The notes under the pieces: generated by a model
Databases searched by the model: none
The model's input: the letters and a program-made list of their open reading frames with translations, nothing else
What the model was told of the DNA's origin: nothing
Shown here: piece after piece, positions 148 to 1,352 of the stretch
Layout: each line of letters opens with the position of its first letter
Position numbering within the stretch: position 1 is the first letter of the stretch
NCBI GenBank assembly: GCA_031316115.1
Contig: JALDRC010000004.1
Span: forward strand, 124,001 to 188,000
Direction of reading: 5' to 3'
Source of the DNA: Nitrososphaeraceae archaeon
GTDB taxonomy: Archaea; Thermoproteota; Nitrososphaeria; Nitrososphaerales; Nitrososphaeraceae
Length of the DNA stretch: 64,000 nt
Translations under genes and position numbers: made by a program

Positions 148-1352
148 ATGTTAGCAAATATGGATGTGTTGGTCTTAACCTAGGAAATACATGCTCTTAA
201 AGTTTAACATACAAATCCAAGATATTTAGAAAATATTTCAATCTATTAACTAAAAAATCATTATTCAAGAATTATTATTGGTTTTTCAGTAATTACATCA
301 AAATAGGAAAATCTGTATCAATATATGGATCTTGTTAAGTTAATATAATATTTCCATCCTTTAACCAAAAATCATAATTGTTATTTGTTCTAATGTCATT
401 CTAAATAGAGAAAATGATAGTAATAATTTTTATTTTCCTTCTTCTGCCTTTAACAATTGATTTTGGAATAACAATATATTTTTCATTAATTTCTGTTCAG
501 AAAAATTTACATCCAAATCAATAGATGATAAATCTAGTGCCTATTCTAAGGATTTATAAATAATTATATCTGGATTTTATCCATACGTTTTTTTAGATTG
601 TTTTGGCGCGTTTGCTGGTTAAAGTTGCAGAATATTAATATAATTTATCAGAACAACAACACCAACCAAGAGAAGAACATGAGTTAACTAAGTTCTAACA
701 TAGTTAAATAAAAGACAGATGAATTATATGATTATTAAAGATCTAGTAAAAAAATCACACTGTCCTCAAATGACGACAATAATAGAATCCATAGATACAA
801 GCCTATTTCTGTCACCCATGCCCAAGTCCTGCTAGAACGGTCTCAGTGCTATACCGTTCTGGGTATGGGTTGATCCTATAGAAAAATATTAAGAATATAT
901 CAGCTAAACGAAAGTATTGTTAACACATTTTCGGATTAACACAGATGAGTAGTAAAGAATATCTTTTATTTGACTATGAAAACATTCAGTCAATATTAGA
1001 TTTATTGTTACATCTAGTACTGTTGCAACTGCTACTAAAATTATTTAAAGTATTCAAATGCTCAAGAATTTCCTATTTTGATATTTAAGATTTCTTATGA
1101 AAAATAATTTGAACCAGATCAAAGTTAATAAAATTTTACCAATTTTTGTAGTGAGTTTGATATTGAATTCTACCTGTGCAATAATTATATAATCTCATAG
1201 AGCATTCACATTTTAAGTGTTTTATCTACTTATTTACCCTGATTAGCAAAGATCTGCATATTCAGTTACATAATTATAATCTTCTTGTCTATTGTTCTTC
1301 TTGTTGTTTATGTCGTTGATCATATTATTCTATTTTCAACCTATTTGTTTTA
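148..1352. other. 1.2-kb AT-rich region without a convincing gene
   Basis: No open frame with coding character was found on either strand. The one sharp feature is the GC-rich stem structure at 814-870, listed separately. On the minus strand between about 180 and 600, short coding-like stretches are broken by many stops, which may be the residue of a dead gene. The rest looks like ordinary AT-rich spacer. Confidence 0.6.
814..870. ncRNA. putative structured RNA: 18-bp two-part stem with a 10-nt one-sided bulge
   Basis: Bases 814-823 (acccatgccc) pair with 861-870 (gggtatgggt), ten pairs including one G-U. Bases 834-841 (agaacggt) pair perfectly with 853-860 (accgttct), eight pairs. The loop is 11 nt (842-852). 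The 3' arms abut, whereas the 5' arms are separated by 10 nt (824-833), so the fold is one long hairpin with a single asymmetric bulge. It is clearly richer in G+C than the surrounding 1.2 kb. It does not fit a tRNA, and no ACA or C/D boxes were seen. The element is nearly symmetric, so the transcribed strand is uncertain. It could be a small RNA, a guide-like hairpin, or a relic of a mobile-element end. The structure is visible; the function is inferred. Confidence 0.4.

Follow-up and report, generated by a model that had tools for sequence, protein, structure and literature searches.

What is a stable two-part hairpin doing in a stretch of archaeal DNA that had been called empty, and is it the small RNA that it resembles? 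The window, i.e. the whole stretch of 64,000 nucleotides that was analysed, is C15:124001-188000 of G000, a genome of 3.16 Mb in 20 contigs, and this is the genome that was searched for relatives of the hairpin. On comparing sequences, the window hairpin is best read as the relic of a structured RNA element, with a putative function, that belonged to a terS-terL mRNA. The features on which this reading is built are collected in Table 1.

Table 1. Features of the hairpin locus, in window coordinates
Feature	Position	Strand	Basis
Decayed terS 3' end and terL 5' end; frameshifted pseudogene with stops	674..986	+	blastn, tblastn
Relic end of terS-like reading frame, ELTKF then stop	681..698	+	compared with L005 9510-9527, ELTTKF-stop
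Start codon of the relic terL, reading MIIKDL where the intact gene has MTFKDL	728..730	+	alignment with L005
Two-part hairpin, sense strand of terL	814..870	+	fold, covariance-model match
Outer stem, 5' arm, ACCCATGCCC	814..823	+	sequence, fold
One-sided bulge, 10 nt, variable (35% identity between copies)	824..833	+	fold, copy comparison
Inner stem, 5' arm, AGAACGGT; Glu-Arg codons in in-frame copies	834..841	+	
Inner stem, 3' arm, ACCGTTCT; Pro-Phe codons	853..860	+	
Outer stem, 3' arm, GGGTATGGGT; Trp-Val-Trp codons	861..870	+	sequence, fold

The hairpin and the gene around it

The structure itself is exactly as the first-pass annotation had drawn it, down to the one-sided bulge and the single G·U pair. 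Ten pairs make up the outer stem, G820·U864 included, and eight the inner stem, which closes an 11-nt loop (842-852); beyond a one-base bulge, about three more pairs (811-813 with 872-874) prolong the outer stem. With a folding energy of -25.1 kcal/mol (z=-4.33) that none of 200 dinucleotide shuffles equalled, the earlier judgement that such a fold is unlikely by chance is upheld, and no other 70-nt segment within the first 4 kb reaches a lower energy. The minus strand folds less well (z=-2.67). In the covariance model used for the copy searches, the window copy scores 69.8 bits, being itself among the seven sequences from which the model was built. Neither tRNA nor tmRNA was matched in the window, where Rfam 15 also gave no match at the curated threshold, and at three terL loci Rfam 15 returned nothing relevant up to E=1; for want of a match to any of these, we rejected an identity as tRNA, tmRNA or Rfam RNA.

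The surroundings had been described as an empty region whose neighbours explain nothing, which proved wrong. By blastn, positions 674-879 share 70% DNA identity (E=4e-15), and positions 920-982 share 73%, with an intact terS-like/terL locus on contig C20, whilst tblastn recovers pieces of TerL at 745-840, 842-883 and 924-986, in three frames (E=9e-8). Since homology to terS and terL spans the whole of the feature, the supposedly empty region is a pseudogene. The gene is clearly dead in the window copy, where frameshifts and stops leave residues about 7-90 alone recognisable. The hairpin starts about 86-88 nt downstream of the relic terL start codon, and spans codons for which the intact copy has SVHIQQSLERLSHIPFWVWAD (motif SAHxQ..ER....PFWVWAD). 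As terminase homology covers this very site, a free-standing RNA in empty DNA was rejected; what stands of the undescribed small RNA that had been proposed is a fold of RNA type without a match in Rfam, and what falls is its independence, as it sits in the 5' coding part of terL.

At 684-707, overlapping with the stop of the relic terS, stands another inverted repeat, TTAACTA-(10 nt)-TAGTTAA. In several further copies of the locus the corresponding sequence is TTAACCA...TGGTTAA, with both arms changed as a pair, and the C20 copy is without an inverted repeat of this type.

An intact terL and the family of copies

A DNA search of the genome with its own hairpin region returned two further copies, one of which (C20:17664) lies inside an intact terminase large-subunit gene of 497 codons that matches PHROG 2 over residues 85-485 in a profile search (E=1.3e-22); the covariance model places this hairpin at C20:17646-17712. 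The intact terL is preceded, at a distance of 30 nt, by a helix-turn-helix gene, which we call TerS-like on account of its position and its helix-turn-helix, the match to a small-terminase profile being weak (E=0.023). The intact terL is carried by an integrated element of ~19 kb: 19-bp direct repeats at C20:3299 and 22290 flank it, the second adjoining a tyrosine integrase, and between them lie a D5-type primase, a zinc-finger gene, the TerS-like gene and terL. These repeats are far from the terL hairpin, for which reason we rejected an integrase attachment site. The portal and major capsid genes by which a tailed-virus provirus is recognised were not found in the C20 element, and PF04860 (Phage_portal) and PF05065 (Phage_capsid), which were detected in positive controls elsewhere, are absent from the whole genome, although divergent capsids could be missed. 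Remnants of TerS/TerL are very numerous in the same genome, which holds 19 TerL matches, most of them broken, despite the lack of any portal or capsid family found genome-wide. It also holds a hybrid terminase with an open TerL frame of 541 aa (L253, C1:55951-56694), in which the C-terminal half resembles the hairpin-bearing TerL family (about 50% identity) and the N-terminal half is unrelated and carries no hairpin.

A covariance model of seven sequences and 20 pairs (R1) finds about 19 sense-strand hairpins in this genome and has no match below E=0.1 in the 69 further family genomes searched; these are the model search and the copy count that the first-pass annotation had proposed. The tblastn search places most copies at the N-terminus of TerL, and almost all the rest show the same reading in broken frames, of the type HSAHIQDIPERxxxxxPFWVWAD; the most weakly placed are C15_100 and C19_44. 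The copies stand in terL genes or, for the most part, in broken fragments of them. Many scattered copies had been named beforehand as the mark of a mobile-element fragment, and this is largely what we find, in that the copies are the remains of integrated terS-terL elements. An independent palindromic mobile element was rejected, as the placeable copies sit at the same terL codons.

Beyond the family, 400 genomes of the class yielded two weak matches only, in G117 (E=5.5e-5) and G214 (E=0.0099), where each E refers to one genome; with no TerL N-terminal match, both are taken as chance. The model matched none of 19 control loci, namely 16 TerL of other genera, the second TerL type of G000 and two viral TerL. 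Among viral contigs, a 16-mer search gave 9 matches, about the level of chance, a loose pattern gave noise, and a single-protein search gave none, whilst a search by alignment reached two distant TerL loci without the hairpin. Seven viral pattern matches were unsupported by the covariance model, a motif pattern of fixed but wrong spacing matched less often than its control, and genome contigs searched by pattern and by protein contained no match.

Selection on the pairing

Could the fold be an accident all the same, a quasi-palindrome left by template switching or by chance in a protein motif, and merely inherited in decaying copies? Several points speak for such a lack of function: the protein motif encoded by one arm, PFWxWAD, is itself conserved, mutation can homogenise the arms of a palindrome, and a single lineage holds all copies. 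We nevertheless see only a slight chance that it is right, and the copies themselves already disfavour it. In 18 of the 19, the 67-nt sequence has z<=-2.2, and the same stretch in 19 TerL genes of related genera has a mean z of -0.3; relatives with the same PFWxWD motif are without the fold. Redrawing codons with the amino acids kept rarely produces an equally good fold: in five copies, stability goes beyond these codon-preserving controls, being equalled in 0 to 40 of 2000 redraws (1-2 for the intact gene, 0 for C3, 6-13 for C17, 6-16 for C14_159 and 38-40 for C1_525, in which a stop codon was swapped for a serine codon).

The pattern of variation points the same way. Identity between copies is.79/.83 in the stems,.35 in the bulge and.40 in the loop, and the pairing register holds 91.4% of positions paired against 29-48% when it is slid, with further support from column shuffles. 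G·U pairs outnumber A·C pairs by 25 to 2 (12 to 2 when distinct ones are counted) and, of the distinct double changes, 6 keep pairing and 5 do not, counts that, like the others given here for the copies, are not independent events because the copies are related and come from one genome. From the G·U excess, which template switching would not yield, it follows that it is the coding strand that folds; it also folds better than its complement, by a mean of -3.3 kcal/mol (Wilcoxon p=0.007).

Rare codons in doubly synonymous pairs are a further difficulty for a fold without function. In the long ORFs of the window, CGG makes up 2% of Arg codons and CCG 7% of Pro codons. CGG is paired with CCG in seven in-frame copies, plus the window copy across its frameshift, and AGG with CCT in three, with zero mixed cases among them. 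The exchange between CGG/CCG and AGG/CCT is silent on both sides, and protein selection therefore cannot explain it. The fold is selected as a nucleic acid, and pairing on the coding strand overrides codon preference. The first-pass annotation had taken the structure for a folded RNA and not a DNA operator, and had suggested a search for compensatory changes: these are present, in the doubly silent exchange and in the six double changes that keep pairing (five do not), and together with the strong bias of G·U over A·C they bear out its view.

Candidate roles at a module junction

Considering a hairpin that lies in terL, belongs to a family of copies and is under selection for pairing on the sense strand, what might it do? 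We propose that the window holds a dead copy of an RNA hairpin which a family of integrated terS-terL elements in this archaeon conserves within the 5' coding part of terL. In living copies, the hairpin would act in cis on the mRNA of terS and terL, as a folded structure to which a protein might bind or at which a nuclease might cut, and could thereby set the translation of terL or the processing of the mRNA. On this cis role our confidence is evenly balanced. A purely cis role in the production of TerL leaves unexplained why hairpins persist in copies that have no terL body, and one group of copies is without the bulge. These type B copies (C3, C14_162, C14_29a, C12_201) have different inner-stem codons and a single longer stem, whereas type A copies carry the 10-nt bulge; with two architectures, what is conserved is not the bulge but a long hairpin on the sense strand, its outer arms resembling TCAGCCCA/TGGGCTGA. 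One tandem pair, at C14:29258 and 29930 (L242), joins a type B to a type A hairpin 672 nt apart, each with its own terL start.

What lies behind the hairpin differs from copy to copy. TerL homology continues downstream in 9 of the 19 and is undetectable in the other 10, and two different tails (i and ii) stand behind truncated copies and, at strong E-values, nowhere else in the genome. By their blastn edges, similarities between copies start or stop in the joined 3' arm, 853-874. C20 and C3 are 88% identical in the TerL body and 57-59% upstream of the 3' arm; C17 and C1_198 are 77% identical up to the end of the hairpin, with nothing detectable thereafter; C19_77 and C15_100 go from 60% before the 3' arm to about 80% after it. 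A changepoint scan with a crude alignment, covering 7 informative pairs, put the switches mostly near the hairpin. Since identity so often switches at the 3' arm, the hairpin also marks a module junction; breakage directed to this site could be the cause, and so could ordinary recombination via a conserved patch.

These identity switches suggest a role at the level of DNA, either as a packaging-initiation or cleavage site of the pac or cos kind, or as a folded single-strand recombination site. Cutting or crossover at the 3' base of the hairpin would then yield both truncated and mosaic copies, in keeping with the loss of TerL after the hairpin and with tails found only behind hairpin copies. 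Retention of the fold where the terL body is missing likewise favours a signal able to act without its own TerL. As with the pac and cos sites of tailed viruses, the hairpin is located in the region of terS and terL, and its base is where similarity breaks off; unlike them, it has an RNA-like bias towards G·U. That bias favours RNA, or at most folded single-stranded DNA, over recognition of a duplex, ordinary recombination through the conserved 20-nt patch can also make such junctions, and the direct repeats of the C20 element are far from terL. We think a DNA-level site rather unlikely.

A smaller chance still goes to a small RNA acting in trans, cut from the 5' region of terL or made by truncated copies, which would persist for that reason. 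The hairpin is indeed kept in broken and truncated copies, and no Rfam family matches it; against this, no promoter, terminator or transcript speaks for it, and the bulge and loop, where a seed for target pairing would be expected, are variable. Doubtful, too, is a wider picture in which the terS-terL elements would be capsid-less satellites that use the capsid of a helper, and the hairpin, as RNA or single-stranded DNA, would be a signal recognised by the terminase, kept without the terL body and serving as a point of module exchange.

RNA hairpins inside viral coding sequences are a familiar kind of element. The one proposed here resembles them in that sense-strand pairing is selected within a coding region via synonymous codon pairs; it differs in lying in terL of archaeal elements, and in an architecture and sequence that match no Rfam family. 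The nearest named relative of its host gene (TerL, PHROG 2) is nvie-Pro1-2 of the provirus Pro-Nvie1 (FR725450), the Nvie-Pro1 terminase and the intact TerL sharing 32% identity over 88%. Pro-Nvie1 has portal and capsid genes, whereas none were recognised in the C20 element; a scan of 16 related TerL loci from other genera gave no hairpin. In NitKor-E1, a cryptic integrated element of Nitrosopumilus koreensis, adjacent terS and terL are the only head-tail-virus genes, and the role of the terminase was called 'enigmatic' (PMC6563490). Like the C20 element, it is integrated and combines terS-terL with a tyrosine integrase; its description, by which alone the two were compared, contains no hairpin.

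Rfam gave no match and the literature searched held no paper describing such a hairpin family; neither the family nor its gene nor its location at module junctions appears to have been described. The terminase genes that ammonia-oxidising archaea carry in the absence of capsid genes have been termed enigmatic (PMC6563490), and a selected RNA structure in such a terL offers a concrete, testable handle on what capsid-less terminases do, as well as on the control of packaging genes in archaeal elements. This structure is kept where the body of the gene is gone, and it sits at the junction of exchanged modules.

Two observations concern the neighbourhoods of the copies. On the minus strand of the window, 2286-2945 holds a transposase-like ORF of 219 aa, with relatives of this ORF in the vicinity of four or five of the other hairpin copies. 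At two further loci (L243, L244), truncated copies stand directly upstream of paralogous secreted-protein-like genes (ILVASSLLFVSWIS..ADIICPPTCDEAKQ).
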